The position numbers were made by a program, and so were the translations under genes. The notes beneath the pieces were generated by a model. That model ran no database searches, had not been told where the DNA came from, and saw nothing but the letters and a program-made list of their open reading frames with translations. A DNA stretch of 46,887 bases from Ahrensia sp. (GTDB taxonomy: Bacteria; Pseudomonadota; Alphaproteobacteria; Rhizobiales; Rhizobiaceae), in NCBI GenBank assembly GCA_002706335.1, contig PAKZ01000004.1:1-46887 (forward strand), given 5' to 3'. Shown piece after piece: positions 12,930 to 40,987 of the stretch (the stretch's first letter is position 1; each line of letters starts with the position of its first letter).

Positions 12930-12945
12930 ACTAACAGCTGTTAGA
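12930..12945. promoter_or_regulatory. TetR-type operator upstream of the importer operon
   Basis: ACTAACAGCTGTTAGA contains a perfect 14-bp palindrome, CTAAC-AGCT-GTTAG. It lies 66 bases upstream of the leader ORF and just beyond the end of the broken hydratase gene. It matches the consensus TCTAAC-N4-GTTAGA seen in three other intergenic regions of the window, with one outer mismatch. It probably overlaps the promoter of the livG operon. The palindrome is directly visible; the regulator is inferred. Confidence 0.7.
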
Positions 12946-12986
12946 AAAAATGGTCAACTACTGAAACCGCTGCAAAACATAACAAT

Positions 12987-13824
12987 TCAGACGGTCGAGT
13001 ATTCGGCGGAAAAACTCCGAAGACCAGTTTGGTCCCGGCACCAGACTATCCCGGAGGAACCAGCTCTTTCATGGTGCAGCTGCAATTTGCAGGGCAATGT
13101 CAGCGGAGCGAGACCCGGAAGGAAAACTGATGGGGCGGATCGTGCAAAGTGCTCGCAGCAAGATTGAGGAGCAGCGTTGCCTGTAAAGGGCCATGCACAA
13201 CGAGCCCGGGATAGGCTTCGGTTTGGGTCGCATAGACATGGTCATAGTGAATGCGATGAGCATTGAACGTCAGCGCGGAATAGCGGAACAGCAGCACCGG
13301 ATCCGGTGCAAGGCTCGATCTGAGCGTGGTGGGATCGGCCGCTGCGGGCGCGTTCTTGACAGGGCGCGGCGCGGTGATCTGACGATAGACGATCGACTGC
13401 TGCTCCCGGATACAAAGCTGGTTGCCGCTCAAATGCTCATGTTCAACGCTAACAAAGACCAATACACCACTGCGGCCCTGCTTGGCCGTTATATCCCCGA
13501 TTACAGAGCGGCGGGTGAAGGTTTCGCCGATCTTCAGCGGGGCGATATGTATAACATCGCCGCCGGCCCACATGTGGGCGGGAAGCGGGACAGGTGGCAG
13601 AAACCCGCCCCTCACGGCATGGCCATCCTCTGAGAGCGAAGAACCTGGCACGGTGTCAAGTGCCATACACCAATGTATTCCCAGCGGCACATCGCCCGCT
13701 CCGTCCCAAAGATGCGTGCCGAACGTGGCACGATATTTGTCGATCAGCCCCTGCGTCAGAACATCTTCTCTGGCTTGGGTCGTCCCGACCAAGGTGGCAG
13801 CGCGTCAAGGTCGATCCCGCTCAT
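12987..13824 (-). pseudogene. HTD2/mesaconyl-CoA-hydratase-like (MaoC fold) gene with two frameshifts
   Basis: The longest open piece (13100-13792) is a hot-dog-fold hydratase of the 3-methylfumaryl/mesaconyl-CoA hydratase type, with the active-site strand FNAHRIHYDHVYA followed by YPGLVVHGPLQA. Both ends continue in other frames. Upstream, MSGIDLDALPPWSG (from ATG 13824) matches the family N-terminus and must shift at 13784-13786. Downstream, GLAPLTLPCKLQL through GIVWCRDQTGLRSFSAEYS matches the family C-terminus and must shift at 13114-13116. At both points restoring one G to a GGG run rejoins the frame and yields about 279 residues, normal for the family. The ATG is 10 bases after the preceding dehydrogenase. 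Either the gene is decayed or the assembly dropped a base in two G-runs. Confidence 0.75.
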
Positions 13825-13834
13825 TGTCTTAGTC

Positions 13835-14986
13835 TCAGAAGGATCGCGGCATTCCCAGGATATGCTCTCCGACATAGGACAGGATGAGGTTAGTCGAGAT
13901 CGGCGCCACCTGATACAATCGGGCCTCGCGGAACTTGCGCTCGACATCGTATTCCCGCGCGAAACCGAAGCCGCCATGGGTCTGGATGCAGGCGTTGGCG
14001 GCGTCCCAGCTGGCCTCGGAGGCCAGTAGCTTGGCCATATTCGCCTGCGCCCCACACACCTGCCCGGCATCGAAGCGTCTGCAGGCCTCAAAGCGCATCA
14101 GATTGGCGGCCTCGATGTTCACATAGGCCCGCGCAATGGGGAATTGCACGCCCTGGTTCTGGCCGATGGGACGGTCGAAGACGATGCGCTCGCCGGCATA
14201 GGCGCGAGCCTTGTCCACGAACCAGTAGCCATCGCCGATGCATTCCGCGGCGATCAGCGTGCGTTCGGCATTCAGCCCGTCTAGAATATGGTAAAATCCG
14301 CGCCCCTCTGTGCCGATCAGGTTCTCGGCGGGGATCTCGAGGCTGTCGAAAAAGACCTCGTTGGTTTCGTGGTTCGGCATGTTGGCGATGGGGTGGACCT
14401 CCATGCCGTTGCCGATGGCCTCTTTCAGATCGACCATGAAGATCGACAGGCCTTGAGACTTCTTCTTGACCTCGGTCAGCGGCGTAGTGCGCGCCAGCAG
14501 GATCATCAGGTCGGAATGCTGGATGCGGCTGATCCAGACCTTTTGGCCATTGATCACGTAGCGGTCGCTTTTCCTGACCGCCGAGGTCTTGAGCTTGGTG
14601 GTGTCCGTCCCGGTGGTCGGTTCGGTCACCGCCATGGATTGCAGGCGCAATGTGCCGCTGGCGATGCCGGGTAGGTATTTCTGCTTCTGCGCGTCCGAGC
14701 CGTGCCGCAGAAGCGTGCCCATGTTGTACATCTGCCCGTGGCAATGACCCGCATTGCCACCGCAGCGGTTGACCTCTTCCATTATGATCGAGGCCTCGGT
14801 CAGCCCCAGGCTCGAGCCGCCATATTCCTCGGGGATCATCGCGGCCAACCAGCCCTCGCGGGTCAGCGCATCGACGAACTCTTCGGGGTAGGTTTCGCGG
14901 CGGTGATACTCAGGCGGGAACTGCGCGCAGAGCGCGCGCAACGCGTCGCGCAGATCGTTATGGGTGTCGGGGGCTGAGGTCTGCAT
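13835..14986 (-). CDS. acyl-CoA dehydrogenase, helix-G glutamate type
   Basis: A 383-residue acyl-CoA dehydrogenase. Motifs: IPEEYGGSSLGL, the flavin/substrate loop AVTEPTTGTDTTKL, GQKVWISRIQHSD and the C-terminal THGGFGFAREYDVERKFR. The usual YEGT glutamate is replaced (YQVAPIST), while DGLNAERTLIAAE carries a Glu at the position used by isovaleryl-CoA-type enzymes, so it likely oxidises a branched acyl-CoA. It starts after GGGCGGGATAAGCG, 3 bases downstream of the lyase stop, and precedes the frameshifted hydratase. A role in making an enoyl-CoA for that hydratase is likely but unproved. Confidence 0.9.
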   Translation of the reverse strand: MQTSAPDTHNDLRDALRALCAQFPPEYHRRETYPEEFVDALTREGWLAAMIPEEYGGSSLGLTEASIIMEEVNRCGGNAGHCHGQMYNMGTLLRHGSDAQKQKYLPGIASGTLRLQSMAVTEPTTGTDTTKLKTSAVRKSDRYVINGQKVWISRIQHSDLMILLARTTPLTEVKKKSQGLSIFMVDLKEAIGNGMEVHPIANMPNHETNEVFFDSLEIPAENLIGTEGRGFYHILDGLNAERTLIAAECIGDGYWFVDKARAYAGERIVFDRPIGQNQGVQFPIARAYVNIEAANLMRFEACRRFDAGQVCGAQANMAKLLASEASWDAANACIQTHGGFGFAREYDVERKFREARLYQVAPISTNLILSYVGEHILGMPRSF

Positions 14987-14989
14987 CGC

Positions 14990-15784
14990 TTATCCCGCCC
15001 CCGGGCCGGAGGTTTCGAGGATCTCTTCCTCGGCGCGCTGCCACAGCTCATAGGAAATCGGGTTCTCGCTTTCCTCGAGGATGTGGCCGACCAGCCCGAT
15101 GGCCCGCGCCATGACGCCAAAGCCGCGCACGATCTTCCAAGGAAAGCCGAATTCGCAGCAGATCGCGCCGATGGCGCCGGTGGCATTGATTGGCAGCATC
15201 TTGCCCGACATTTCCTCTGCGTCGGCCTGGATCTTCTGGATCAGTTCGATGTATTCGCCCGATTTGCCGTTTTCGGCCGCGATCTGGAACAGGCGCGGGG
15301 CGCGCGGGTCAACGGGCTTGTGCACCGGATGGCCCAGTCCCGGCACGATGGCCTTGCGGGCACTGAACTTCTCGACCGTCTCCAGCGCGATGGCCTCCAG
15401 ATCGGCGCCGGTGCCCAGCTTGTCCTGCGGCAGCGCCTCGTACAGCATCCTCGACGCGCCTTCCATCGAGCCGACAAAGACTGTGCCCAATCCGCACAGC
15501 CCGGCCGCAACGGCGGCCTGAAGCGATTCCGGCGCGCCCATATAGGTCATCCGCGCGGCCATGGCAGAGGGCGTGATACCATGTTCGACCAGAGTAATGA
15601 CGATGGCGTTGAAGACTCGGCTTTCCTCGGGCGTGGCCTTGCGGCCCGTCAGCTGCAGAAACGCCAGATCACCGAGGTTCATGTGGCCAAGGATTTCATT
15701 CGGCAGGTCGAGCCCGCGCACGGTGATCCTGTCGGGTGTGCTCCAGCCGATGTTGGAGCTGATCTTTTCCTTGCGCTTACTCAT
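14990..15784 (-). CDS. citryl-CoA-lyase-like protein (citrate synthase fold)
   Basis: A 264-residue protein of the citrate-synthase superfamily, much shorter than citrate synthase (about 430) and resembling stand-alone citryl-CoA lyases and the C-terminal lyase part of ATP-citrate lyase. Conserved stretches are GLGHPVHKPVDPRAP with the catalytic-type His, NATGAIGAICCEFGFPW, and GFGVMARAIGLVGHILEE. Such enzymes split a citryl-CoA-like 3-hydroxy-3-carboxyacyl-CoA to acetyl-CoA and a 2-oxoacid, or run in reverse. Its ATG overlaps the TGA of the upstream SDR by one base (TGATG), implying coupling. In this operon it probably acts on a carboxylated, methyl-branched hydroxyacyl-CoA rather than on citrate. 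Confidence 0.75.
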   Translation of the reverse strand: MSKRKEKISSNIGWSTPDRITVRGLDLPNEILGHMNLGDLAFLQLTGRKATPEESRVFNAIVITLVEHGITPSAMAARMTYMGAPESLQAAVAAGLCGLGTVFVGSMEGASRMLYEALPQDKLGTGADLEAIALETVEKFSARKAIVPGLGHPVHKPVDPRAPRLFQIAAENGKSGEYIELIQKIQADAEEMSGKMLPINATGAIGAICCEFGFPWKIVRGFGVMARAIGLVGHILEESENPISYELWQRAEEEILETSGPGAG

Positions 15785-16698
15785 CAGACCGGATCCCAGG
15801 AAAAGACGTCCGCAGAAACCTCGAGCGGCGTGAATTGCGACTTGAGCGCGGGAATGGCGCGCTCGGCGATTTCGTCGGCGGTCCAGCCGTCGCCGTTATG
15901 TACCGACCGCACCGGGCGCGGCTGGTTGAACAGGAAGATCTCGTTCTTGCGCACCGCGAAGATCTGTCCCGTGACGTCAGCGGCGTGGTCGCTCATCAGG
16001 AAACAGGCCATCGGCGCGACCTTGGCCGGGGTCATTTCCTTAATCTTCTCGACACGCGCCTTCTGTTCGGGCGTGTCGGTCTTGATAGACGAGATCATCC
16101 GGCTCCAGGCGAAGGGAGCGATACAGTTCGAGCGCACGTTCCAGCGCTTGAGGTCCAGCGCGACCGACTTGGAGAAGGCCGCGATACCGAGCTTGGCAGC
16201 GGAGTAGTTCGCCTGGGCGTAATTGCCGATCAGACCTGAGGTCGAGGTCATGTGAACCAGGGCGCCGCTTTCCTGTTCGCGGAAATAATCAGTTGCAGCT
16301 CGGCTGGTGTTGAAAGTTCCGTACAGGTGGACCTTCACCACCGCGTCGAAATCCTCGTAGGTCATTTTGTGGAAGAAACCGTCGCGAAGGATGCCGGCAT
16401 TGTTCACCACCGCGTCGATGCGGCCGAATGCCTTGACGCCGGTCTCGACCATCGCGCGCGCGGCATCGGGGTCGGTCACATTGCCGCCATCGGCGATCGC
16501 ATCGCCGCCTGCGGCCTTGATTTCCTCTACGACCTTCTGGGCCGCGGTCTCGGTCTGGCCGGTGCCCTTCAGCGACGCGCCCAGATCGTTCACCACCACC
16601 GCGGCGCCTTCCGCCGCCGCCATTAGGGCGATGTCGCGTCCGATCCCGCCACCGGCGCCGGTGACAAGGACCACCTTTCCGTCAAGTGCCTTCGCCAT
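15784..16698 (-). CDS. SDR similar to multifunctional-enzyme (R)-3-hydroxyacyl-CoA dehydrogenase
   Basis: A 304-residue SDR with TGAGGGIGRDIALM, NNAGILRDGFF, Ser in TSTSGLIGNY, and Tyr/Lys in NYSAAKLGI. The insertion after the cofactor strand (VNDLGASLKGTGQTETAA) and NNAGILRD are hallmarks of the dehydrogenase domain of HSD17B4/MFE-2, which oxidises (R)-3-hydroxyacyl-CoA; bacterial stand-alone versions occur in sterol and branched-chain degradation. The roughly 50-residue C-terminal tail (GWTADEIAERA) is also typical. GGGAGGACGAAG precedes the ATG. An (R)-specific dehydrogenase matches the MaoC-type hydratase downstream. Confidence 0.88.
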   Translation of the reverse strand: MAKALDGKVVLVTGAGGGIGRDIALMAAAEGAAVVVNDLGASLKGTGQTETAAQKVVEEIKAAGGDAIADGGNVTDPDAARAMVETGVKAFGRIDAVVNNAGILRDGFFHKMTYEDFDAVVKVHLYGTFNTSRAATDYFREQESGALVHMTSTSGLIGNYAQANYSAAKLGIAAFSKSVALDLKRWNVRSNCIAPFAWSRMISSIKTDTPEQKARVEKIKEMTPAKVAPMACFLMSDHAADVTGQIFAVRKNEIFLFNQPRPVRSVHNGDGWTADEIAERAIPALKSQFTPLEVSADVFSWDPV

Positions 16699-16710
16699 CT
16701 TCGTCCTCCC

Positions 16711-17670
16711 TCAGCTTGCCTTGCGGTACTTGTCGAGACCGCCTGAATGCATGACCCGGCCCATTAGTGGCGCGCCGATGATCTCTTCGGCCTTCACGGC
16801 GGCTGCGATTAACTTGTCCAGGTCGATGCCCGTCTCGATGCCCATTTCGTGGCACAGGAACACCGCGTCCTCGGTGCAGACATTGCCGGCGGCCCGCGCA
16901 TGGCCGTGGCCCGCGAAAGGACAGCCGCCAAGCCCGGCGACCGAGCTTTCGAACATGTCCACGCCCATCGACAGGGCGGCATAGACGTTGGCGATGCCAA
17001 GGCCGCGGGTATCGTGGATGTGCATGCCAATGCGGGCCTCGGGCGCCATTTCGCGCAACGCACCGATCATGCGCTTAACCGCTTCGGGGTTGCCCCAGCC
17101 CATCGTGTCGGCGACCACCAGGATGGGAACCGGAATGTCCTCTTCCTCGCACAATTGCAGGATGAAGCGGAAATCGTCTAGAATGCGTTCCTGCGGGATC
17201 GGGCCTTCGTAGTTGCAGCCGAAAGCGGTCATCACATACGCTGCATCGACGGCATAGCCCTCTTCCTTGTAGAGGCGCACCCAGTCGCGCTGCCGCTCGC
17301 GCATCTCGGCGGAGGAGCAGTTGTTGTTGGCCTGCGCGAAGGCTTCGGAGGGGTAGAACAGCAGACGCGGGTCGATATCGACCTTATGCGCCGTCAGGGC
17401 CTTGCGAAACCCCTTGTCGTTCAACCAGAGCGAGGTGTAGTTTACGCCCGGCTTGCGCTTGATACGCTGGAACAGCTCGCCCGTATCGGCCATCTGGGGC
17501 ACGAATTCGGGGCTGACGAAACTGCCCACCTGGATGCGCTTCAACCCTGTTTCGCTGAGCATGTCGATCAGTTCGGTCCGCTGTTCGATCGGGTAAATCT
17601 TCTTTTCGATCTGAAAACCCTCGCGCGGGCCTTCCTCGCGGAATTCGACAAATTTAGGAAAGTCGCTCAT
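16711..17670 (-). CDS. HMG-CoA-lyase-family enzyme
   Basis: A 319-residue TIM-barrel lyase of the hydroxymethylglutaryl-CoA lyase family, cleaving a 3-hydroxy-3-methyl dicarboxyl-CoA to acetyl-CoA and an oxoacid. The family signature with its catalytic Cys is present (SSVAGLGGCPFAGHGHARAAG), as are the metal-binding MHIHDTRGLG and an N-terminal REGPREGFQIE in place of the usual DGLQ motif. The start at 17670 follows GAGGAGTGACCGC; the open frame upstream overlaps the carboxylase gene. It lies directly after the biotin carboxylase genes (4-base gap), the classic order of leucine/isovalerate-type degradation: carboxylate, hydrate, split. Substrate may be HMG-CoA or a longer analogue. Confidence 0.88.
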   Translation of the reverse strand: MSDFPKFVEFREEGPREGFQIEKKIYPIEQRTELIDMLSETGLKRIQVGSFVSPEFVPQMADTGELFQRIKRKPGVNYTSLWLNDKGFRKALTAHKVDIDPRLLFYPSEAFAQANNNCSSAEMRERQRDWVRLYKEEGYAVDAAYVMTAFGCNYEGPIPQERILDDFRFILQLCEEEDIPVPILVVADTMGWGNPEAVKRMIGALREMAPEARIGMHIHDTRGLGIANVYAALSMGVDMFESSVAGLGGCPFAGHGHARAAGNVCTEDAVFLCHEMGIETGIDLDKLIAAAVKAEEIIGAPLMGRVMHSGGLDKYRKAS

Positions 17671-17674
17671 GCGG

Positions 17675-19681
17675 TCACTCCTCGGGTGGCAGGATCTCGG
17701 CGATGACCTGGCCGCGGTCGACCATGTCCCCATTCGAGACGGTGATGTTGTTGGCCGTACCGGCAGCCGCGGCACGAATCGAGATTTCGAGCTTCATGGA
17801 CTCCATGACCGCGATGACATCGCCCTCGGCCACGATCTGGCCCTCCGTGACTTTGACCTCGACGATCATGCCGGTCAGCGGCGAGGTTACGGCGCGATCC
17901 GCCGCCGCGTCGCCGCTGGCAAAGTCGAGCGGTGCGGCGGGGTGGAAAACCAGCCGTCCCTCGGGCGTATCCAGTTCGATCACCCCCGCATGGAGCCGTG
18001 CGTCGATCACATGGATTTCGTCGCCCGTGACCATGCGCCAGCGGCCAGGGCCGATCTCGCGCGCGGTCAGGGCGATCGCCGCGCCGTCTTCGGGCAGAAC
18101 GGTGTATCGGTCGCCATGCTTCACCGGGCCGACGCGCATTTCCTCCGAGGCGCCATCCGCGCCCTTCAGTGTCACGCGCTGCCCCGCCTCCAGCGCGTCG
18201 CCGCCAAGGCCCAGCCGCCAGCCGGTGAAGGTATCGCGGTTGGTCCAGGGCTCGGCCGTCGTGTCGCGTCGCCCCGCGGCCACGAACAGCACCGCCGCCG
18301 CCGCTTTCCACAGCGCGGAGCGGGCCAGCGCGGGCGGCTGCGTTAGCTCGTCGATGCGGCCGTCGATCCATCGTGTATGAACCTGCATCCATTCGAATTC
18401 TGGGTTTCGCGCCAACGCCGTCAGAAAGGCGCGATTGGTCTCGCCTCCCTCCACGGCGACATGATCTAGCGCCGTGGCGAGACGTGCCAATGCGGTTTCC
18501 CGGTCGGGCGCGTGCACGATCAGCTTGGCAATCATCGGATCGTAATAGGGCGTGACCGCATCGCCTTCCTCGACGCCGCTGTCGATCCGCAGGCCCGATG
18601 GCAGGCTGAGCGTGGTGAGCGTGCCCGTCGACGGGGCGAATTGCATTGCTGGGTCTTCGGCATAGAGCCGCGCCTCGACCGCGTGGCCGTTGATCGTCAG
18701 ATCGTCCTGCACCAGGCCCAGGCCCGCGCCTTCTGCAATGCGCAGATGAAGCGCGACCAGATCGAGTCCGGTGATCGCCTCGGTCACGGGGTGTTCCACC
18801 TGGATGCGGGGGTTCACCTCTAGAAAGAAGTATTCCTCGCCCGCCACCAGAAATTCCACTGTGCCGAGGCCGCGATAGTCCAGCGTTTCGCCCAGGCGCA
18901 CCGCGTCATGGGCGATCTCGTCCAGAAGCGTGCGCGGCAGGCCCCAAGCGGGCGCTTCCTCGATGACCTTCTGGTGGCGGCGCTGAAGCGTGCAGTCGCG
19001 TTCGAAAAGGTGCACCACGTGGCCCTTGCCGTCGCCGGCGATCTGCACCTCGATATGGCGCGCCTCGGGCAGGAACCGTTCCAGCAGCAGCCCTTCGGAG
19101 CCGAAGGTGGATTTCGCCTCGCGTAGCGCGCCCTGGATATCCTCCATCAGCGTGGTCTCGTCGGTTACCAGGCGCTGCCCGCGCCCGCCGCCGCCGCCGA
19201 CCGCCTTCAGGAGGACGGGCAGGCCCATTTCCCGGACTTCAGCTGCGATCTGCTGGGGATTCGACTGCGCGCCCTCTGCGCCCGAGATCACCGGCACGCC
19301 GGCGGCCACGGCCGCCACCTTGGCGCTGGCCTTGTCGCCGAAACGTTCCAGCGTCTCCGGCGTCGGCCCCATGAAGATCATACCGGCAGCCTCGACCGCG
19401 CGGGCGAAATCGGGGTTCTCGGCCAGAAAGCCGTAACCGGGATGGATCGCATCCGCGCTGACGGACTTGGCCGCCGCGATCACTGCGTCGATCTTCAGAT
19501 AGCTTTCCGACGCCGGGCCGCCGCCGATGCAGACAGATTGCCCGATCTCCCGCACATGGAGGGCATTCGCATCAGCCAGGGAATGCACGCCGACGGGGGT
19601 GATGCCGCTGGCCCGCGCGGTGCGCGCGATCCGGCAGGCGATTTCGCCACGGTTGGCGATGAGAAGCGTCTTGATCTTCAT
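17675..19681 (-). CDS. acyl-CoA carboxylase alpha subunit (biotin carboxylase + BCCP, MCC/GCC type)
   Basis: A 668-residue fused subunit. Biotin carboxylase part: IANRGEIACRIAR (N-terminus), HPGYGFLAEN at 80-89, ATP-grasp glycine loop GGGGGRGQ at 162-169, and [15 protein letters not shown] linker region with a BT-type domain follows, then the carrier domain with biotinylated Lys630 in VMESMKLE. It has ESMKL in place of the common EAMKM. The layout equals methylcrotonyl-CoA or geranyl-CoA carboxylase alpha. Its start has GAGGGGCGAGCC and is 10 bases after the beta-subunit gene. The product carboxylates the gamma-methyl carbon of a 3-methyl-2-enoyl-CoA if it follows family rules. It differs from the split carboxylase at 43676-46887. 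Confidence 0.92.
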   Translation of the reverse strand: MKIKTLLIANRGEIACRIARTARASGITPVGVHSLADANALHVREIGQSVCIGGGPASESYLKIDAVIAAAKSVSADAIHPGYGFLAENPDFARAVEAAGMIFMGPTPETLERFGDKASAKVAAVAAGVPVISGAEGAQSNPQQIAAEVREMGLPVLLKAVGGGGGRGQRLVTDETTLMEDIQGALREAKSTFGSEGLLLERFLPEARHIEVQIAGDGKGHVVHLFERDCTLQRRHQKVIEEAPAWGLPRTLLDEIAHDAVRLGETLDYRGLGTVEFLVAGEEYFFLEVNPRIQVEHPVTEAITGLDLVALHLRIAEGAGLGLVQDDLTINGHAVEARLYAEDPAMQFAPSTGTLTTLSLPSGLRIDSGVEEGDAVTPYYDPMIAKLIVHAPDRETALARLATALDHVAVEGGETNRAFLTALARNPEFEWMQVHTRWIDGRIDELTQPPALARSALWKAAAAVLFVAAGRRDTTAEPWTNRDTFTGWRLGLGGDALEAGQRVTLKGADGASEEMRVGPVKHGDRYTVLPEDGAAIALTAREIGPGRWRMVTGDEIHVIDARLHAGVIELDTPEGRLVFHPAAPLDFASGDAAADRAVTSPLTGMIVEVKVTEGQIVAEGDVIAVMESMKLEISIRAAAAGTANNITVSNGDMVDRGQVIAEILPPEE

Positions 19682-19691
19682 GGCTCGCCCC

Positions 19692-22687: not shown

Positions 22688-22713
22688 ATCGTCCTCCGTG
22701 ACGGGCAGCGCGA

Positions 22714-23874: not shown

Positions 23875-23884
23875 AGTCTCTTCC

Positions 23885-29596: not shown

Positions 29597-30052
29597 TTAT
29601 CCGGCTACGCCCGTTCGCCCGACAAGGGCCATCAGCGTTCCGGTCATCGCGGCGACGAGCCTCTCATCCCCGCCCTTCACCGCAAAGGCGCGCGCCTCGC
29701 AGATCGTCAGGGTGCGCCCCGGCTTGACCACATCCGCGACGAATCGAAACCGCTCGCCGTTCGCCGGGTTGAGCAGGTTGATCTTGAATTCCACGGTCAG
29801 CACCGCAGCCTCGGCGGGCATCAGAGAGAAGGCCGCATAGCCGCAGGCACTGTCGAGCGCGGTCGACACGATCCCGGCGTGCAGAAAACCGTGCTGTTGA
29901 GTCAAGGCATCATTATGTACCATCTCCAGCACGATACGACCGGGCGAGAGTCCGGCAATACCGATCCCCAGCGTATGCATCACCTTCTGGCGCTCGAAAC
30001 TGTCGCGCACGCGCGCGTCATAGTCAGGATTCTTCGGTTCGAATTCCGGCAT
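29597..30052 (-). CDS. PaaI-family hot-dog thioesterase
   Basis: A 151-residue hot-dog protein of the PaaI/4HBT type, hydrolysing acyl-CoA thioesters. The active-site helix is seen in QQHGFLHAGIVSTALDSACG, followed by TVEFKINLLNPANGERF, the usual second half. Such enzymes release CoA from dead-end or slowly processed intermediates and protect the CoA pool. It is the last gene of the minus-strand set after the AraC regulator (22-base gap) and is convergent with the broken ligase. GGGAG lies about 14 bases before the ATG. Confidence 0.88.
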   Translation of the reverse strand: MPEFEPKNPDYDARVRDSFERQKVMHTLGIGIAGLSPGRIVLEMVHNDALTQQHGFLHAGIVSTALDSACGYAAFSLMPAEAAVLTVEFKINLLNPANGERFRFVADVVKPGRTLTICEARAFAVKGGDERLVAAMTGTLMALVGRTGVAG

Positions 30053-30074
30053 AGACTGTCTTGCACTCCCTTTT

Positions 30075-33587: not shown

Positions 33588-33602
33588 TCTCTGCCTTGCA
33601 TG

Positions 33603-33631
33603 AAACAAAAGGCCGCACCTGATGCGCGGCC
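33603..33631 (-). terminator. Rho-independent-type terminator or attenuator
   Basis: On the minus strand GGCCGC (33631-33626) and GCGGCC (33616-33611) form a GC-only stem with a 9-base loop, followed immediately by TTTTGTTT. It would end transcripts from the BadH-like gene. It also lies only 16 bases before the ligase start codon, so any ligase promoter between 33632 and 33698 would transcribe through it. Confidence 0.6.
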
Positions 33632-33698
33632 AGTTGGGGAGGATATTTAGACACGCCTCGACCGCAATGGTACATGTCTGGACGTATTCATTTTACGA

Positions 33699-34460
33699 TC
33701 AACCGTGCATCGACAAGCCGCCCGAAACGGAAATCACCTGGCCGGTGATGAATCCTGCATCGTCGGAAGCCAAGAAGCAGATTATTCCGGGGTAGTCGCT
33801 CGGCTGCGCCAGTCGCTTCATCGGAATGGCCCGCTTGAGGCCTTCCGCGATCTTTTCACCAGCCTCGCCTTGGGCGACTTGGGCGAAGAGAGGCGTATCG
33901 GTCGGGCCAGGCGCAACCGCGTTCAGCTGAACGCCTTTTCGCGCCAGTTCCCGCGCCACGGTCTTGGTAAAGGAGATGATGCCGCCTTTGCAGGCCGAAT
34001 AAACCGCTTCGCCTGACGATCCTACGCGGCCGGCGTCGGAGGCGATGTTGACAACGCGGCCGCCGCCATTCTTGACCATACTGGGAAGCACCGCGTGATG
34101 CATGTTCAGCGGACCATAGAGGTTGATGTCGATGATTTTTTTCCAGAGGTCAGCATCTGTGTCGATGAATGGCTTGATCACGTCCCATCCGGCGTTGTTC
34201 ACCAAAATGTCGATCGGACCTCCGGCCTCGAACTCGACCACGGACTTGTCAACCTGAGCGCGATCGGTGATGTCTACCTTGAAGGCCTCGGCCTTGCCGC
34301 CAGACTTCTTGATCAGGCGAGTGGTCTCCTGTGCGCCTTCTTCGTTCAGGTCGAACACTGCGACGTCAGAACCTTCCTCGCCGAATCGCTGACAAACGGC
34401 TCGGCCGATTCCGCTTCCGCCTCCTGTGACAATGACCCGTTTGCCATTCAATCCACGCAT
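33699..34460 (-). CDS. SDR resembling 2-hydroxycyclohexanecarboxyl-CoA dehydrogenase (BadH)
   Basis: A 253-residue classical SDR: TGGGSGIGRAVCQRF, VFDLNEEGAQET (an acidic residue after strand 2, favouring NAD), NNAGWDVIKPFIDTD, Ser in VNIASDAGRVGSSG and Tyr/Lys in YSACKGG. The stretches NNAGWD-x-x-KPF, NMHHAVLP, SDAGRVGSSGEAVYSACKGG and SDDAGFITGQVISVSGGL-x-M are those I know from BadH, the ring 2-hydroxyacyl-CoA dehydrogenase of cyclohexanecarboxylate degradation. AAAGG precedes the ATG. It is divergent from the tandem TetR gene and shares an operator with it, so it is likely a key pathway gene. A related hydroxyacyl-CoA substrate remains possible. Confidence 0.85.
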   Translation of the reverse strand: MRGLNGKRVIVTGGGSGIGRAVCQRFGEEGSDVAVFDLNEEGAQETTRLIKKSGGKAEAFKVDITDRAQVDKSVVEFEAGGPIDILVNNAGWDVIKPFIDTDADLWKKIIDINLYGPLNMHHAVLPSMVKNGGGRVVNIASDAGRVGSSGEAVYSACKGGIISFTKTVARELARKGVQLNAVAPGPTDTPLFAQVAQGEAGEKIAEGLKRAIPMKRLAQPSDYPGIICFLASDDAGFITGQVISVSGGLSMHG

Positions 34461-34592: not shown

Positions 34593-35954
34593 ATGTGTGT
34601 GCAGCCGCCTCAAGCATGCCTTGCCGGCGACGATCAGAGCAAGGCGGAAAGGACCCGCGAGGAAATCCTCCGCGCGGCAGCGCGTCTATTCCGCTATGAG
34701 GGATTTAATTCGACGACGATGCGGGAGATCGCACGTGAAGCGAACATCGAAGCCGGGAGCATCTATTATCATTTCGACTCAAAAGAGAAGATGCTGGATG
34801 TGGTGCTCGACGTCGGTGTCCGGCGTCTACACAATGAGGTGGCCAGGATAATTAGGTGTGCGGGTGCAAATGACGAACCCTTTCGCGAAACTTTCGCGAA
34901 ACTGGTCGACACGCATCTGACCTTCCTTTTGATAGATAGCGACTTCACGTCTGCGAATATCCGAAACTACCCGATGTTGTCGGAGGAAGCACGACGCGCT
35001 CATCGGGAACTGCGCGGTTCATATGCTAAGTTGTGGGGTGGATTCCTGCAGAACGCCCGCGACAAGGGTTTATTGCGCAAAGACATTTCAGTTCCTCCCA
35101 TTCGCCAATTCATCTTAAGTGCGATGAACTGGACCGTTGAATGGTACGAAGTGAAACGTTATCCGGTCAGTATTCTCTCGGAACGCATGAGCAGATTGAT
35201 CTTGGACGGAATGTGCGACAAGCGTCGTCCGGGAAATAGCCTCCCCAAGCCAAACGTCATATCCCTCCCGGAGCCGGTCGAGCCCCACGGAAAAGCGGCC
35301 AGGACGCGTAGCGAAATCCTGCGCGCGGCCGCGCGCGTTTTGAGAGATAGGGGGTACAAGGCTACGACGCTACGCCAGATCGCTGTTGAGGCAAATATGG
35401 AGGCGGGCAGCGTCTACTATCATTTCAAATCAAAAGAGAAGATTGTAGACGAGGTGTTGCAAACCGGACTGAGCGACCTGCTTGTCGGTGTCAGTCGCGT
35501 CATTGAGCAGTTCGAGGAACCCAACGATCATTGTGCCAGGATATCGGCGGCCATTTCGGCTCATATGGATTTCCTATTCAGGGCCAGCGAGTTCACGTCG
35601 GCAAATGTCCGCAGCTATGGAATGTTGCCCACGAAGCTTCGTCGCAGTCACCGGGGTATCCGTCACGAATACGCGGCTGTTTGGGACAAGCTGTTGTCCG
35701 ATGCGCAGCAAAGCGGTGCTGTGAGAAAGGACATACAGATCGTTCCTCTGCGCCAGGTCATGCTGGGAGCCTTGAACTGGACCGTTGAATGGTTCGACCC
35801 ACGGAAAGCTGGACAGGAAGGATACCACACCCTGTCCGAGTTTTCCGACATGCTGGTAAGGCTGCTTTTCAACGGAATCTGCGAAGCGGAACAACCGCTT
35901 AGAGAGGGGGTCTCTGACAGCTTGCTTCGCGCTCGCGAAGGTTCAGACCAATAG
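34593..35954 (+). CDS. tandem TetR-TetR fusion transcriptional regulator
   Basis: A 453-residue protein made of two whole TetR-family regulators, about twice the usual 200 residues. First copy: DNA-binding domain about 17-70, with ANIEAGSIYYHF as recognition helix. Second copy: about 234-290, with ANMEAGSVYYHF. By hand, 38 of 56 aligned residues of the two DNA-binding domains are the same. The ligand domains also match (FTSANIRNY/FTSANVRSY; MNWTVEWY/LNWTVEWF). A linker at about 210-233 (Pro-rich, SLPEPVEP) joins them. I start at ATG 34593; the open frame upstream to 34095 is antisense to the SDR. No strong binding site is visible, so a nearby TTG is possible. It probably represses its own gene and others through TCTAAC-N4-GTTAGA, relieved by an acyl-CoA. 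Confidence 0.93.
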   Translation: MCVQPPQACLAGDDQSKAERTREEILRAAARLFRYEGFNSTTMREIAREANIEAGSIYYHFDSKEKMLDVVLDVGVRRLHNEVARIIRCAGANDEPFRETFAKLVDTHLTFLLIDSDFTSANIRNYPMLSEEARRAHRELRGSYAKLWGGFLQNARDKGLLRKDISVPPIRQFILSAMNWTVEWYEVKRYPVSILSERMSRLILDGMCDKRRPGNSLPKPNVISLPEPVEPHGKAARTRSEILRAAARVLRDRGYKATTLRQIAVEANMEAGSVYYHFKSKEKIVDEVLQTGLSDLLVGVSRVIEQFEEPNDHCARISAAISAHMDFLFRASEFTSANVRSYGMLPTKLRRSHRGIRHEYAAVWDKLLSDAQQSGAVRKDIQIVPLRQVMLGALNWTVEWFDPRKAGQEGYHTLSEFSDMLVRLLFNGICEAEQPLREGVSDSLLRAREGSDQ

Positions 35955-36344
35955 GAAGTGATACAAGCCCTCGGCGACGGATTTCTCCGGACTTGCCTGC
36001 CAGGACAGTACTCTTACACTTGCGATACGCGACCCCTTCCGCGTCACGGTTGCGTGCGCAGTAAGCGGTCCCTTCATGCCAGGCCTAAGGTAGTCGACGG
36101 TCAGATTGATCGGCTTGACAGGCACTTCCGCGAAATCGGGTTGGACTGCTATGGCGGCTGTGGCTTCCATGAAGCTGGCGATAATTCCCCCGTGGTAATG
36201 TTCCATAACCGGGTTTCCGATATGGCGCGAATCAAACGCCATCTCGGCTTTGGCATGGAACTCGCCGACTTCCTGAATATCAAAGTTCAGAAAGCGGAAG
36301 AAAGGAACCCGGAAAACGTTCATGCTGACGGCTTGCAGGTCCAT
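35943..36344 (-). CDS. PaaI-family hot-dog thioesterase (short)
   Basis: A 133-residue hot-dog protein with the PaaI-type helix MEHYHGGIIASFMEATAAIA and the strand INLTVDYLRPGMKGPLTAHA. It probably hydrolyses an acyl-CoA thioester. Its ATG lies one base after the stop of the preceding thioesterase (TAAgATG), with GGGAAAGG as the binding site; an internal ATG at 36323 is also possible. The 3' end overlaps the convergent tandem TetR gene by 12 bases. Two thioesterases side by side suggest a two-component or heteromeric hot-dog enzyme. Confidence 0.86.
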   Translation of the reverse strand: MDLQAVSMNVFRVPFFRFLNFDIQEVGEFHAKAEMAFDSRHIGNPVMEHYHGGIIASFMEATAAIAVQPDFAEVPVKPINLTVDYLRPGMKGPLTAHATVTRKGSRIASVRVLSWQASPEKSVAEGLYHFLLV

Positions 36345-36345
36345 C

Positions 36346-36825
36346 TTATGCCTTTCCCCTGGTCATTTCCTCAAACAGGCTGGTTTCCCCACGCGTCAAC
36401 GCAAACGAGGCAGTCCCGCGCGCGATTTCATCACCGACATGGTTATCAAACCAGATGCTGCCGGAATTGAAGGCGATATGGCGGGTTTGACGATAGCAAT
36501 GCGCACGAACGATGACATCCGCGCGCGAATGGGCAGCGCGCAGATAATCAACCCTGAGGTCAAGCGTCGCCATCGTGCTGACGCCCTCAATGGCCACAAA
36601 GTTTGCAAGCCCGAAGACACTGTCGAGAAGGGCCGTCAGGATGCCGCCGTGAAGCAAGGTTTGATCGCTGTCGACGCAAAAATCGGGGTTGAATGGCATC
36701 CGGACCAATACGCCTTCCGTCGAAACCTCTTCGATCTTGAGCGCCATTTGGGTAATCAGCCCCTTTCCACGCATATTCCACATCTGCGCGATTTGGTCCA
36801 ATTTCTGCTGTGAGAGGTCAGGCAT
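36346..36825 (-). CDS. PaaI-family hot-dog thioesterase
   Basis: A 159-residue hot-dog protein with LLHGGILTALLDSVFGLAN (catalytic helix) and MATLDLRVDYLRAAHSRADV. It belongs with the short thioesterase directly downstream, and a PaaI-like hydrolase role is expected. AAGGGAAGGATTGC precedes the ATG. It follows the crotonase gene by 12 bases in the operon that begins with the two isovaleryl-CoA-dehydrogenase-like genes. Substrate unknown. Confidence 0.88.
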   Translation of the reverse strand: MPDLSQQKLDQIAQMWNMRGKGLITQMALKIEEVSTEGVLVRMPFNPDFCVDSDQTLLHGGILTALLDSVFGLANFVAIEGVSTMATLDLRVDYLRAAHSRADVIVRAHCYRQTRHIAFNSGSIWFDNHVGDEIARGTASFALTRGETSLFEEMTRGKA

Positions 36826-36837
36826 GCAATCCTTCCC

Positions 36838-37641
36838 TTAGCGGCCTGTAAAGTTCGGTTTTCGCTTTTCCAAAAAGGCAGCGACCGCTTCATGGTGGTC
36901 TTCTGTCTGATGCATCAAAGCTTGGTATGCCGCGGCCGAGTTCAAGAAATCAGGCAAATCCATTCGCTCGGCATTGCGCATAAGGCGCTTGGCGACGCGC
37001 ACCGCCCGCGGCGGTTTCGAAGCGATGACAGCAGCGCGTTCGCGGGCGCGATCCATCAGCGTGTCATGGGGAACAACCTCCAGCACCATCCCCAGCTCAA
37101 GCGCCTCTTCGGCACCAACCATCCGGCCCGAAAAGGTCAAGTCCGCTGCTTTCTGATGCCCCAGACGCCGCAGCAGGAACCAGCTGCCCGCATCGCCCGG
37201 AATGATCCCGAGATTGATGAAGACCTCGCCAAACATAGCGTTTTCCGAGGCGACGCGCATGTCGCACATCATGGTCAGGTCGCACCCAGCGCCGACTGCC
37301 GCGCCGTTAACCGCCGCGATGGTCGGAATGTCCATGTTGTAAAGCGCCTGAGGCAGACGTTGCACCCCGTCGACATAGCTTTGCGCCGCTGTCAGCGGCT
37401 CCTTGCGGAAGACGCCGTCGGGGTCGTTCATCTCCTTGATGTCGCCCCCGGCACAAAAGGCCGGGTCGGCGCCGGTCAGGATCATAACGCTGATGTCCGG
37501 ATCGAGGTGCACCTTCGCGAAGATCTCCAGAAGGGCGGCGATCATGTCGTTTCCAGTGACCGGATTGCGGCGTTCCGGCTCGTTGAGCGTGACCGTGGCA
37601 ATCCTGTCGGAGATATCCAGAAGGACGGGGGACCTACTCAT
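36838..37641 (-). CDS. enoyl-CoA hydratase/isomerase-family protein
   Basis: A 267-residue crotonase-fold protein with GADPAFCAGGDIKEM and AAVNGAAVGAGCDLTMMCD. The catalytic-Glu segments read FGEVFINLGIIPGDAGSW (Glu three residues before the usual place) and AADLTFSG (Asp), so the chemistry may differ from simple hydration. The ending FLEKRKPNFTGR is typical. I chose ATG 37641 (GGAG nine bases upstream) over 37650, which touches that site; the start overlaps the upstream SDR by 8 bases, suggesting coupling. Confidence 0.87.
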   Translation of the reverse strand: MSRSPVLLDISDRIATVTLNEPERRNPVTGNDMIAALLEIFAKVHLDPDISVMILTGADPAFCAGGDIKEMNDPDGVFRKEPLTAAQSYVDGVQRLPQALYNMDIPTIAAVNGAAVGAGCDLTMMCDMRVASENAMFGEVFINLGIIPGDAGSWFLLRRLGHQKAADLTFSGRMVGAEEALELGMVLEVVPHDTLMDRARERAAVIASKPPRAVRVAKRLMRNAERMDLPDFLNSAAAYQALMHQTEDHHEAVAAFLEKRKPNFTGR

Positions 37642-38485
37642 TCTTTCCATCTCCGCGTTCGCGTTTCTCGAACATGTCAGGGTTGATCATGTCACGTGCG
37701 TCGTGGCCCAGATGCAGGGTTTCGCCACCATCGACATAGATGTCTTCGCCCGTGATGAAACTTCCCAATCTGGACGCGAGGAATATGATCGTGCCGGATA
37801 TGTCCTCGGCAGCGCCCATCCGGTTCAGAACCGAGCGATTAAGCTGTTTCCAGCGGTCTGGTGGAATGGGATAGCGGCCAAGGGCCTCGGTCTTGATCGT
37901 GCCGGGCGCAACGCAGTTCAGACGAATGCCGTATTCGCCCCATTCGGCGGCCAGGGTCTTCATCATCCCGGTTACGCCGGCACGGGCGGCGACAGTGTGC
38001 GTGAACCCGGTCAGCGCAGTTCGGGTCGAAATAGCCGTGACGAAAACGATCGATCCGCCGTTGTCGTACATGAAATGATCCGCCGCGGCGCGGGTCATCT
38101 GCCATGAGCCGATCAGGTTGTTACGGATCACCGCTTCAAAACCCTTGTTAGTGATATCGCGCGCAGCAGCGATATACTGGCCGCCCGCATTGTTGACCAG
38201 AACGTCAAGCTGCCCGTAATGGTCCTTGATACGCGCCATCGCGGCTTCGATGCTGTCTTCATCGCGGGTGTCACCGGGCACGACGAAGGCCTCGCCGCCC
38301 GCCGCGCGGATCATCTCGGCGGTCTCTTGGAGCGGGTCCTCGCGGCGGGCGAACAATGCCAGTTTAGCCCCGCAGGAAGCCATCTCAAGCGCGGTTGCCC
38401 GCCCCATGCCGGAACCCGAGCCGGTTATAAGGGCTACCTGACCTGTCATGAGATCGGGCGCGTAACGCTGGATCTGTTCTGTCAT
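37634..38485 (-). CDS. SDR of the enoyl-/dienoyl-CoA reductase branch, YxxxK motif altered
   Basis: A 283-residue SDR with TGSGSGMGRATALEM, NNAGGQYIAAARDI and a glycine-rich C-terminus. The active site is atypical: instead of Tyr-x3-Lys the aligned stretch reads THTVAARAGVTGMMK. The pattern AARAGV-x4-K-x-LA-x-EW is that of peroxisomal trans-2-enoyl-CoA reductase and 2,4-dienoyl-CoA reductase-like SDRs, which use a different residue set. It may therefore reduce a double bond rather than oxidise an alcohol. GAGGAG six bases before ATG 38485 sets the start. It lies between two dehydrogenase genes and a crotonase. Confidence 0.85.
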   Translation of the reverse strand: MTEQIQRYAPDLMTGQVALITGSGSGMGRATALEMASCGAKLALFARREDPLQETAEMIRAAGGEAFVVPGDTRDEDSIEAAMARIKDHYGQLDVLVNNAGGQYIAAARDITNKGFEAVIRNNLIGSWQMTRAAADHFMYDNGGSIVFVTAISTRTALTGFTHTVAARAGVTGMMKTLAAEWGEYGIRLNCVAPGTIKTEALGRYPIPPDRWKQLNRSVLNRMGAAEDISGTIIFLASRLGSFITGEDIYVDGGETLHLGHDARDMINPDMFEKRERGDGKNE

Positions 38486-38496
38486 GGTTCCGCTCC

Positions 38497-39696
38497 TCAA
38501 TTCTTCAGAAGCTCACCGGAGATAATCAGTTTGCGCACCTCCTGGGTGCCCGCACCAACCTCCAGCACACGGCCGGTGCGGTACAGGCGGTTCACCTCGG
38601 TGTCGCGCATGTAGCCCGAGCCGCCGTGGATCTGCACCGCCTTGTCCAGCACGAAAGAAGTTGCCGCCGCAGCCTTGTAGATCGCGGCCGCGGTCAGCTT
38701 GTGGATCTCGCCACGCCCGCCAGCGCCCTCTTCCAGGCCCTCGCACATGGCGGCCGTCTTCAGCGACAGGCTTCGCGCCGCCTCGATCTGGGTATACATG
38801 TCGGCCAGCATCGCCTGCACCATCTGGAAATTGGCAATGGGCTTGCCGAATTGCTGGCGTGTCCTGGCGTAGTCGATGGAGATTTCCAGCGCGCGGCGCG
38901 CAATGCCCGTGGCATTAAAGCAGACAATGGCGCGTTCCAGATCCAGCCCCGACATCGTCACCGCAACACCGCCATCAAGCTTGCCGACTATGTTCTTGGC
39001 CGGAACTCGGCAATCCTCGAATACCAGCTCGCCGGTGGGCGAACCGCGGAAGCCCATCTTGTTGAGTTTCTGCGCCACCTTAAAGCCAGGTGTGTCGGTT
39101 TCCACGATGAAGGCGGAAATGCCCTTGGCGCCCTTTTCAGGCGAGGTCTTGGCATATACCAGGACGAGATCGGCGATCGGCCCGTTGGTGATGTAGATCT
39201 TGGCGCCGTTCAGGATGTAGTCGTCGCCGTCCTTCCGCGCGGTGGTACGCATCGAGCCGAGCGCGTCCGACCCGGCACCGGGTTCGGTCAGGCCCAGGGC
39301 GCCGATCAGCGAGCCGTCGCAGAGGCCCGGCAAATATTTTTTCCGCAATTCGTCATTGGCGTTGCGGTAGATGTTGTTGACGCACAGGTTGTCGTGGGCC
39401 ACATGAGTCAGCCCGATGGCAGCCGAGGCGCGCGACAATTGCTCGGTGATGATACACGCCGAGGTAAAATCCAGCCCGGCGCCGCCGAACTCGGGCGGAA
39501 TGTTCAGCCCGAGATAGCCCATCTCCCCCAGTTTCGGGAAAACCGAGGCCGGCAGGTCGTCGGTGTCGTCCATCTCCGCGTTAAGGTGATGGAACTCGGA
39601 AAAGAAGAATTTGCCGGCCTGATCGGCCAGCGCCTGCTGCTCATAGGTCAGGAAATGCGACGGCAGGTCGGGGGCATTTCGCAAAGTCTGGTTCAT
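38497..39696 (-). CDS. isovaleryl-CoA-dehydrogenase-like acyl-CoA dehydrogenase (second copy)
   Basis: A 399-residue acyl-CoA dehydrogenase with LGLTEPGAGSDALGSMRTTA, GAKIYITNGPIAD and IHGGSGYMRDTEVNRLYR. The C-terminal box is GAGTQEVRK (Gly, not Glu), while MSGLDLERAIV carries the catalytic Glu at the position that marks isovaleryl-CoA dehydrogenases. It therefore should take a 3-methyl-branched acyl-CoA. ATG 39696 is 8 bases from GGGAGG and better placed than the ATG at 39702. It directly follows a close paralogue with a 14-base gap. Confidence 0.92.
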   Translation of the reverse strand: MNQTLRNAPDLPSHFLTYEQQALADQAGKFFFSEFHHLNAEMDDTDDLPASVFPKLGEMGYLGLNIPPEFGGAGLDFTSACIITEQLSRASAAIGLTHVAHDNLCVNNIYRNANDELRKKYLPGLCDGSLIGALGLTEPGAGSDALGSMRTTARKDGDDYILNGAKIYITNGPIADLVLVYAKTSPEKGAKGISAFIVETDTPGFKVAQKLNKMGFRGSPTGELVFEDCRVPAKNIVGKLDGGVAVTMSGLDLERAIVCFNATGIARRALEISIDYARTRQQFGKPIANFQMVQAMLADMYTQIEAARSLSLKTAAMCEGLEEGAGGRGEIHKLTAAAIYKAAAATSFVLDKAVQIHGGSGYMRDTEVNRLYRTGRVLEVGAGTQEVRKLIISGELLKN

Positions 39697-39710
39697 GGTC
39701 ATGTCCTCCC

Positions 39711-40925
39711 TCAGGCGCGCAGCAACTCTTCGGCGATGATGATCTTGCGCACCTCGCTGGTGCCGGCGCCGATCTCCAGAAGCTTGTTGGCGCGATAGAG
39801 CCGGTTGATCTCGGTGTCATGCATGTAGCCGGAACCGCCGTGGATGTGGCAGGCCTCGGTCACCGCCTTGTTGAAAGCCTCGCCGGCGTAAAGACAGGCC
39901 GCCGCGGTCAGCTTGTGGATCTGGCCGCGGCCGCCGGCGCCCTTGGGCAGGCCGACGCAGGCCGCCAGTGCCCGGTGGCCGAAGGCGCGGGCGGTTTCTA
40001 GCTCGATATAAATCTCGGCCAGTTTCGACTGCACCATCTGAAAGCTTGCGATTGGCTTGCCGAACTGTTCGCGGAGCTTGGCGTATTCCAGGCCCAGCTC
40101 CAGGGCGCGTTCCGCCATGCCGACGCAGACCGAGGCGACCATGGCACGTTCCAGGTCCAGTCCGCTCATCACGATCGATACGCCGCTGTTTTCGGCGCCG
40201 ACCAAGGCCGAGGCCGGCACCCGGCAATCCTCGAACAGCAATTCCCCGGTGGGCGAGCCGCGGAACCCCATCTTGTCCAGCTTCTGCGCCACCTTGAAGC
40301 CGGGATTATCCGTCTCGACGACGAACGCGGAAATTCCCTTGGCGCCCCTCGACTTGTCGGTCTTGGCATAGAGCAGGATCACGTCGGCGATCGGGCCGTT
40401 GGTGATGTAGATCTTCGAGCCGTTGATGACATAGTCGCCGCCGTCTTTCCGCGCTGTCGTCGCCATCGAACCCAGCGCATCGGAACCCGCGCCGGGTTCG
40501 GTGAGGCCAAGGGCTCCAACCAGTTCGCCCGAGCACAGGCCGGGAACGTATTTCTTTAACTGCTCTTCCGACCCGTTGCGCAGGATGTTGTTAAGGCACA
40601 GGTTGTCATGCGCCCCGTGCGACAGCCCGACGGCCGGGTTCCATTTCGAAATCACCTGAGATACCAGTGCTTGGGTGAATTCGTCCTGACCTGATCCCCC
40701 CAATTCTTCTGGGGCGGTGACGCCCAGAAGCCCAAGTTCGCCCATCTGTTTGAATAGATCCTCGGGCCACCATTCTTCCGCATCCATTCTTTCCTGCAGC
40801 GGATGAAGCAGCTCGCGCGAAACGCGGTCCACATGGTCGACGATTTGACGCTGTTCCTCTGTCAGCGAGTAATTGGCCTTTATGGCCTCTAGCTCGGCCA
40901 ACTCCGGCCCTGCCTGAACACTCAT
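39711..40925 (-). CDS. isovaleryl-CoA-dehydrogenase-like acyl-CoA dehydrogenase (first copy)
   Basis: A 404-residue acyl-CoA dehydrogenase, paralogue of the next gene: LGLTEPGAGSDALGSMATTA, NGSKIYITNGPIAD, FRGSPTGELLFEDCRVPA and MSGLDLERAMV with the isovaleryl-type Glu; the C-terminal box is GAGTSEVRK. Two such enzymes in tandem point to two successive or two differently sized branched substrates, as for isovaleryl-CoA and citronellyl-CoA in acyclic terpene degradation. GGGAGG precedes ATG 40925; the extension to 40979 crosses the operator. First gene of a six-gene minus-strand operon, divergent from the AtuA/carboxylase operon. Confidence 0.92.
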   Translation of the reverse strand: MSVQAGPELAELEAIKANYSLTEEQRQIVDHVDRVSRELLHPLQERMDAEEWWPEDLFKQMGELGLLGVTAPEELGGSGQDEFTQALVSQVISKWNPAVGLSHGAHDNLCLNNILRNGSEEQLKKYVPGLCSGELVGALGLTEPGAGSDALGSMATTARKDGGDYVINGSKIYITNGPIADVILLYAKTDKSRGAKGISAFVVETDNPGFKVAQKLDKMGFRGSPTGELLFEDCRVPASALVGAENSGVSIVMSGLDLERAMVASVCVGMAERALELGLEYAKLREQFGKPIASFQMVQSKLAEIYIELETARAFGHRALAACVGLPKGAGGRGQIHKLTAAACLYAGEAFNKAVTEACHIHGGSGYMHDTEINRLYRANKLLEIGAGTSEVRKIIIAEELLRA

Positions 40926-40971
40926 TCCAAATCCTCCCAATCGGCTTGGCAGCTTCCCCTGTTGACCAAAA

Positions 40972-40987
40972 TCAAACATATGTTAGA
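40972..40987. promoter_or_regulatory. TetR-type operator in a divergent promoter
   Basis: TCAAACATATGTTAGA: right arm identical to the other sites, left arm TCAAAC differs by one base, same 4-base spacer. It lies in the 135-base gap between the isovaleryl-type dehydrogenase (start 40925) and the crotonase (start 41061). It is the weakest of the four sites, but its place and spacing match. Confidence 0.65.

Follow-up and report, generated by a model that had tools for sequence, protein, structure and literature searches.

We analysed a 46,887-nucleotide stretch of DNA from Ahrensia sp. (GenBank assembly GCA_002706335.1; hereafter the window, which is the whole of contig PAKZ01000004.1, or C4) that carries four copies of the palindrome TCTAAC-N4-GTTAGA. 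We consider it probable, with good confidence, that these are the operators of one large repressor regulon run by an autorepressing tandem TetR protein, W_32. A pattern scan placed all four sites where a preliminary description had reported them. Operator 1 (ACTAACAGCTGTTAGA; 12930-12945) has a 14-bp perfect core and heads the importer operon W_12-W_6. The other three stand between divergent transcription units: operator 2 (TCTAACAAACGTTAGA; 25886-25901; perfect arms) between W_23-W_14 on the reverse strand and W_24-W_26 on the forward strand, operator 3 (TCTAACAATCGTTAGA; 34532-34547; perfect arms) between W_31-W_27 (reverse) and W_32 (forward), and operator 4 (TCAAACATATGTTAGA; 40972-40987; one mismatch) between W_38-W_33 (reverse) and W_39-W_43 (forward). 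As had been claimed, none lies inside a gene, the gene models being our own calls on the contigs. The gaps from operator to gene start are 142 bp for operator 1 and, for the reverse and forward genes, 43/35 bp for operator 2, 71/45 bp for operator 3 and 46/73 bp for operator 4.

The importer operon encodes a LIV-type ATP-binding cassette (ABC) transporter (two ATPases, two permeases and a binding protein) with an AMP-forming acyl-coenzyme A (acyl-CoA) ligase (W_12-W_7; 5912..12787, reverse strand; Pfam), and by the operon rule its last gene is a short-chain dehydrogenase/reductase (SDR; W_6; 5110..5898, reverse strand; Pfam). Genes W_23-W_14 (13835..25842, reverse strand; Pfam and NCBIfam) comprise three acyl-CoA dehydrogenases, a hydratase, a PaaK-like ligase and the alpha and beta subunits of a biotin carboxylase, together with HMG-CoA-lyase-like, SDR and citryl-CoA-lyase-like proteins. 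Divergent from these are W_24, of the 2,4-dienoyl-CoA-reductase/old yellow enzyme type, and a split AMP-forming ligase, W_25/W_26 (together 25937..29515, forward strand; Pfam). This ligase (28001-29515) occupies two open frames here and is one continuous gene in the closed Roseibium plasmid NZ_CP114787.1; the split is either a recent pseudogene or a sequencing error. Next come a BadH-like SDR, an acetate-CoA-ligase-like protein, an NmrA-like protein, an AraC-type regulator and a thioesterase (W_31-W_27; 29597..34460, reverse strand; Pfam and NCBIfam). The AraC-type regulator (30075-30731) is thus encoded behind the operator at 34532, and its Roseibium plasmid counterpart is annotated at about half length. 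W_32 itself, the proposed repressor (34593..35954, forward strand), has 453 amino acids with two TetR_N and two TetR_C_24 domains (Pfam). Beyond it lie two acyl-CoA dehydrogenases, an SDR, an enoyl-CoA hydratase and two 4HBT thioesterases (W_38-W_33; 35943..40925, reverse strand; Pfam), and then an enoyl-CoA hydratase, an AtuA family protein, a biotin carboxylase, a biotin carrier and a carboxyltransferase that continues in contig C15 (W_39-W_43; 41061..46887, forward strand). W_39 and W_40 were assigned by Pfam, and W_41-W_43 by BLAST to other carboxylase genes together with the annotation of the syntenic plasmid.

Near-perfect copies of the palindrome are rare. With one mismatch allowed, a scan of the window yields the four sites alone, whereas 100 shuffles averaged 0.01 sites and never gave more than 1. 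At up to three mismatches there is no enrichment in the window (6 found, 4.76 expected), so the near-perfect sites alone carry the evidence. The preliminary description had held that many equally good sites scattered through the genome would speak against a common regulon. The whole-genome scan (5.1 Mb) found no such scatter: all six exact sites lie in the island (2 on C4 and 4 on C15), as do nine of the ten sites at up to one mismatch, the remaining one being C35:155331. At up to two mismatches, 12 of 26 sites are on C4 or C15. A control pattern, the motif read backward, gave no exact matches genome-wide and 224 at two mismatches, and loose matches to such patterns are therefore background. 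The consensus is roughly WWTCTAAC-RNNY-GTTAGAWW.

The island does not end with the window. Its final gene, the carboxyltransferase, is broken by the contig end, and the remainder of that gene opens C15. The two contigs have about 83 bases in common and then diverge over the last ~11 bases of C4, and there is no exact overlap between them. Adjacency is instead shown by gene order in NZ_CP114787.1 (Roseibium sp. Sym1, from Symbiodiniaceae): window positions 13075-46887 align to this plasmid at 93% identity, and C15 1-42540 comes next in four main blocks of 78-99% identity, followed by trb conjugation genes. Eight further operators are found on C15 (positions 1319, 1401, 3645, 11040, 13523, 27696, 31297 and 34947), giving 12 in total. 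All 12 are outside called genes and stand before genes, and non-genic DNA makes up 9.1% of the sequence. For each of the 11 operators within syntenic sequence the plasmid has a counterpart (at up to two mismatches); the region around the operator at 12930 is not syntenic there. The idea of a single regulon of about 30 genes in the window is thus supported as to the joint set, but both its extent and its gene count were too small. With a generous operon rule we count 38 gene models in the window and 74 on both contigs, numbers that include a doubtful open reading frame (W_13) and one gene split as W_25/W_26. The importer operon is bounded by a CoA transferase gene on the forward strand (W_5), and hence W_2-W_4 were left out of these counts. 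The genes that follow the C15 sites encode a second LIV-type importer, accompanied by ligase and electron transfer flavoprotein (ETF) genes, a third carboxylase, BioY and CoA transferases. MaoC hydratases, acyl-CoA dehydrogenases and, together with a thiolase, a ChsH2-like OB-fold protein are also encoded there (functions from BLAST against window genes, Pfam, NCBIfam and plasmid annotation).

We then examined relatives of the tandem TetR, found by tblastn at no fewer than 76 loci, of which 67 (1.22 Mb) were used and nine were dropped as fragments or distant matches (L115, L128 and L133-L139). Two-domain relatives occur in 51 of the loci listed (L064-L114), mostly from Roseobacter-group bacteria. 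The 67 loci contain 64 exact and 73 one-mismatch sites, where seven control patterns gave 0-1 and 0-8. In 46 of the 51 tandem loci listed, a candidate site with at most one mismatch (exact in 30) lies 50-125 bp before the tetR match, and operator 3 (34532) is the autoregulatory site of this kind in the window. The preliminary description had suggested looking for the same sites before orthologous operons, and every window site does recur before a corresponding operon elsewhere. For operator 1, a one-mismatch site lies 139-175 bp upstream of all ten orthologues of the importer ATPase W_12 (at least 88% identity), and none precedes the four homologues at 55-71% identity. Operator 2 has exact counterparts in L065 and on the Roseibium plasmid, and the other loci hold 19 sites that may correspond to it by their distance from tetR (-9 to -5 kb). 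Operator 4 had been described as carrying one mismatch. The mismatch is present but is no imperfection: all 30 sites at the corresponding distance from tetR (about +6.3 kb) in the other loci listed keep TCAAAC...GTTAGA, which marks the departure at 40974 as a selected feature and not decay. It may tune operator or promoter strength.

Conservation is concentrated in the half-sites. Among 27 non-redundant autoregulatory sites (48 rows, one of them single-domain), 10 of the 12 half-site columns hold 1.77-2.0 bits, and the two third positions are lower (1.39 and 1.03 bits); the flanks average 0.43 and 0.97 bits, and the second spacer base holds 0.06. In a set of 85 non-redundant sites, 44 of 47 departures from consensus affect half-site positions 1 or 3. 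An impression that departures touch just one half of each palindrome was set aside as a by-product of the one-mismatch filter. In a set of 95, the commonest spacers start with a purine, and almost every base among the two on either flank is A or T. (The 47-locus set used in some of the site analyses includes one single-domain locus, L125.) These patterns bear on the idea that the palindromes are marks of a repeat or mobile element, such as insertion or transfer sites. The island is accessory and lies near transposase and trb genes, which would fit such marks. Strong conservation is nevertheless confined to 12 core bases, with 31 kinds of spacer among the 95 sites and varied flanks, and the position in core promoters, the placement of 12 of 12 sites before genes and the recurrence before corresponding operons also speak against it; we regard this explanation as barely credible.

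The position of the sites relative to predicted promoters points to repression. Among the 85 sites, -35-like hexamers (at least 5 of 6 bases) begin at offset 10 or 11 before the operator in 22 cases, compared with a shuffled mean of 1.75 and a maximum of 6. With this spacing, 16-17 bp separate the -35 element from TAGAWT, which the right half-site forms with the two bases that follow it. At the importer promoter, a TTGAC or TTGAT -35-like hexamer begins 11-12 bp before the site in 10 of 10 W_12 orthologues. The operator would thus often lie within the core promoter, between the -35 and -10 elements and with its right half-site forming part of the predicted -10 element, where a bound protein would exclude RNA polymerase. 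Some TetR-family proteins activate transcription, and the same sites could be real but bound by an activator; overlap with the predicted -10 element and the spacer is however a repressor's place, and we think an activator very unlikely.

Evidence for W_32 as the probable regulator comes from the distribution of the motif, which is found with the tandem TetR and with the single-domain TetRs nearest to it. Of 289 Alphaproteobacteria in a panel, only three genomes have a relative at E <=1e-50 (two tandem, one single-domain only). All three carry the exact motif (6, 6 and 1 copies), compared with 13 of the 286 others (Fisher p 1.4e-4), and in the single-domain case (G141) 14 bases separate the end of the site from the TetR match that follows. 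Among 60 relatives, four have exact matches (5 sites in total), and those in G005 (contig C6) and G035 (contig C51) share a contig with the best TetR relative of that genome. Twenty-four island-bearing or related genomes hold 2-11 sites each at up to one mismatch. Positions were inspected for nine of these. The sites cluster, for example, within 52 kb in G074 (7/7) and 41 kb in G081 (7/7), on two contigs in G069 (8/8) and G061 (8/10), and on one contig in G063 (8/9) and G082 (5/6), while G062 has 8 of 10 on one contig and one before an importer ATPase on another. Genomes G080, G081 and G082 have single-domain relatives only (E 1e-20), yet exact sites are clustered with them, and the motif seems to predate the TetR fusion.

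The two units of W_32 are alike. Pfam recognises TetR_N (PF00440, 2.4e-35) and TetR_C_24 (PF17932, 2.8e-28) in two stretches each, and the protein has the family's N-terminal helix-turn-helix (HTH), a helical C-terminal ligand domain and, judged from sequence, a palindrome near its own gene. The score of W_32 for the ScbR_bind_reg equivalog (157.4 against a cut-off of 150) was set aside, as it passes only by summing the two halves. The halves share 35 identical positions in the 50-residue HTH and 58 of 145 in the rest, HTH identity between halves averages 57.5% over 38 sequences, and both carry the recognition-helix motif AGSIYYHF. In a midpoint-rooted tree of 63 rows (the window protein with 19 of the 51 tandem loci, giving 20 N and 20 C halves, 15 single-domain and 8 other TetRs; some outgroup rows have long branches), N halves and C halves each form one clade (100/99) and are jointly separate from all other rows (99/93). 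The next branch (93/91) holds single-domain TetRs of Bradyrhizobium, Xanthobacteraceae and a Hyphomicrobiales metagenome-assembled genome (MAG). Because the N and C halves group together, W_32 most likely arose by internal duplication. Triple TetRs, suggested at some loci by tblastn spans of ~2 kb, were rejected, since a separate TetR gene follows the tandem one; this third, divergent gene lies shortly downstream of tandem tetR in L095, L096, L098, L101, L103 and L106.

An AlphaFold2 model of W_32, built from 38 sequences (the alignment used 37 of the 51 tandem loci), is nearly all-helical and places the two TetR units of the chain in a predicted intrachain pseudo-dimer. Structure comparison matches it to Mce3R at 15-16% identity. 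The account of this Mycobacterium tuberculosis protein (PMC11667970) describes a double TetR-family regulator (TFR) acting as a repressor, with halves of distinct subgroups and a 25-bp nonpalindromic operator. W_32 differs on both counts: its halves are duplicates of each other (99/93) with the same recognition-helix motif, and its putative operator is palindromic with at most small departures. We think it somewhat better than an even bet that W_32 is a natural single-chain TetR repressor, in which an in-frame duplicated gene kept the ancestral homodimer palindrome so that one polypeptide serves each operator, in a 12-operator regulon of ~70-80 kb, plasmid-borne between orders, with a paralogue using a second operator dialect. 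The protein might instead bind the palindrome as a two-chain dimer, through N-N or C-C pairs, the second unit serving a second ligand or DNA looping. Twelve spaced operators would suit a looping two-unit protein, and Mce3R chains also dimerise (PMC11667970); the intrachain fold predicted for W_32 favours the single chain, and we hold the two-chain alternative to be possible but doubtful.

A single regulator, W_32, had been proposed for the whole set. Co-occurrence of the motif with its subfamily supports this, with an amendment, since C15 encodes a second, single TetR (C15_5) that is 35% and 38% identical to the W_32 halves and has the AGSIYYHF motif. Matches to C15_5 at E 1e-45 occur in 20 of the 24 genomes, and in 15 of these the identity is at least 60%. 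The core CTAACN4GTTAG lies 39-80 bp upstream of the relative's own gene in all 16 relatives examined of the 20 matches. Of these operators, 14 of 16 begin with C and 14 of 16 finish with T or G, whereas the tandem sites read T...A in 46 of 46 loci listed (left-base contrast, Fisher p 1.7e-13). This second dialect, CCTAAC-N4-GTTAG(T/G), is seen at the C15 site 3645-3660 and in L142-L157, and C15_5 would head one carboxylase operon behind its own variant operator as a nested sub-circuit. C15_5 could also be the main regulator, with the tandem protein as partner or anti-repressor, given its place in the same island, its kinship to both halves, the shared helix motif and the core before its own gene in 16 of 16 relatives. 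We judge this improbable in view of the distinct dialects, and G073, G076 and G079 have the tandem TetR and the motif with no C15_5 match at E 1e-45, a weak absence as all three are MAGs and may be incomplete.

In the favoured explanation, W_32 would bind the palindromes, silence the island and repress itself. Its chain, with two near-identical DNA-binding domains, most likely folds on itself as a pseudo-dimer, which would let a single molecule fill both palindrome halves and, bound in the core promoter, shut out RNA polymerase. After uptake and activation of the substrate, a CoA-thioester intermediate would most likely bind the C-terminal domains and free W_32 from DNA. We propose such an inducer because the structure neighbours of W_32 include, by their entry titles, AibR with isovaleryl-CoA and FadR proteins with acyl-CoA. 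This would lift repression of three biotin-dependent carboxylases, CoA ligases and two LIV-type importers, as well as of thiolases, ETF, the biotin transporter BioY and numerous acyl-CoA dehydrogenases and hydratases.

The pathway appears to break down methyl-branched, isoprenoid-like acids, given the carboxylases, the AtuA-family and HMG-CoA-lyase-like proteins, SCP-2-type thiolases, two importers and BioY. Searches of Pfam, NCBIfam and the literature for a firm substrate named none, and among the matches listed no enzyme reached an NCBIfam equivalog cut-off (BadH, 362.9 against 431.2). Subfamily models were passed for HMG-CoA lyase, citryl-CoA lyase, lipid-transfer protein, an acetyl-CoA acetyltransferase and a glucose-1-dehydrogenase-type SDR.

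Several points weigh against a regulon run by W_32. Computation shows the sites with their rarity, conservation and promoter geometry, the link to this TetR subfamily, the duplication and a predicted fold; binding, repression, inducer class and substrate are inferred. The W_32 model is a monomer without DNA, built from 38 sequences. The loci are kin and their counts are not independent (85-95 non-redundant sites). Five of the 51 tandem loci listed lack a site at up to one mismatch (L108, L109, L111 and L113 have two-mismatch sites, L099 none), and for single TetRs of the Bradyrhizobium type the closest site is 1.4-2.7 kb away, none standing immediately before the gene itself. The 13 panel genomes with the motif and no close regulator relative hold one or two exact copies each. 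In 14 of the 24 genomes the backward control is as common as the motif or commoner at up to one mismatch, so clustering and position are informative there and counts little. In raw counts, the -35 hexamers also accumulate at offsets 28 (11), 21 (9) and 26 (6), so the geometry differs between sites. Finally, some of these sites could also be bound by C15_5, which shares the recognition-helix motif of W_32.

A search of open-licence papers for the motif, tandem TetRs or the system, judged mostly from listings, found Mce3R and nothing on the present system. Parallels exist among single-domain TetR repressors. Mycobacterial KstR binds TnnAACnnGTTnnA, with a 2-bp spacer, and its description (PMC1995591) gives 83 predicted genes in M. 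smegmatis, a short palindrome overlapping the -10 element and autoregulation. The regulon proposed here would likewise be large, of lipid-degradation type, autoregulated and governed by a palindrome overlapping the -10 element, with the difference that W_32 has two domains; the window has no copy of the KstR palindrome TAGAACN2GTTCTA, even with two mismatches allowed. AtuR/RdmA of Pseudomonas represses an atu-type cluster (AtuA-H homologues) through the operator AGCAAGCGCTTGG (PMC9973270). The island resembles that system in its AtuA gene (PF07287, 1.9e-143) with acyl-CoA carboxylase genes alongside, but AGCAAGCGCTTGG is not above chance in the window (1 match at two mismatches, 1.7 expected). 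BkaR of mycobacteria represses branched-chain keto-acid genes including acc genes from GTTA(N)T(N4)A(N)TAAC (PMC3920632); here the operator arms are reversed and W_32 has two domains. AibR, solved with isovaleryl-CoA and operator DNA according to PDB titles, is again a single-domain TetR regulator.

What was an uncharacterised degradation island, mobile among marine and often alga-associated bacteria, can thereby be treated as one testable regulon with a defined candidate operator and regulator. The class of double TetRs, whose sole solved example found is the asymmetric Mce3R, would gain a member that arose by duplication and is linked to a palindrome. The operator logo makes regulon members findable in other genomes, and the regulator offers a route to the inducer and hence the substrate.

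The island is accessory, as a close relative of the regulator is absent in five of five congeners (best 2.4e-34). Plasmid records matching the regulator number 387, of which 37 are at 60% identity or above; the best 25 are mostly marine, many from algal cultures and many near-copies from one species. A DDE transposase fragment lies at the left contig end (window 158-442). At the other end, C15 41571-52550 encodes, from translations read by eye, panB/panC-like, ETF-QO-like and LuxR/LuxI-like genes and a TrbI-like end, and the right edge of C15 suggests a conjugative plasmid or integrative element.

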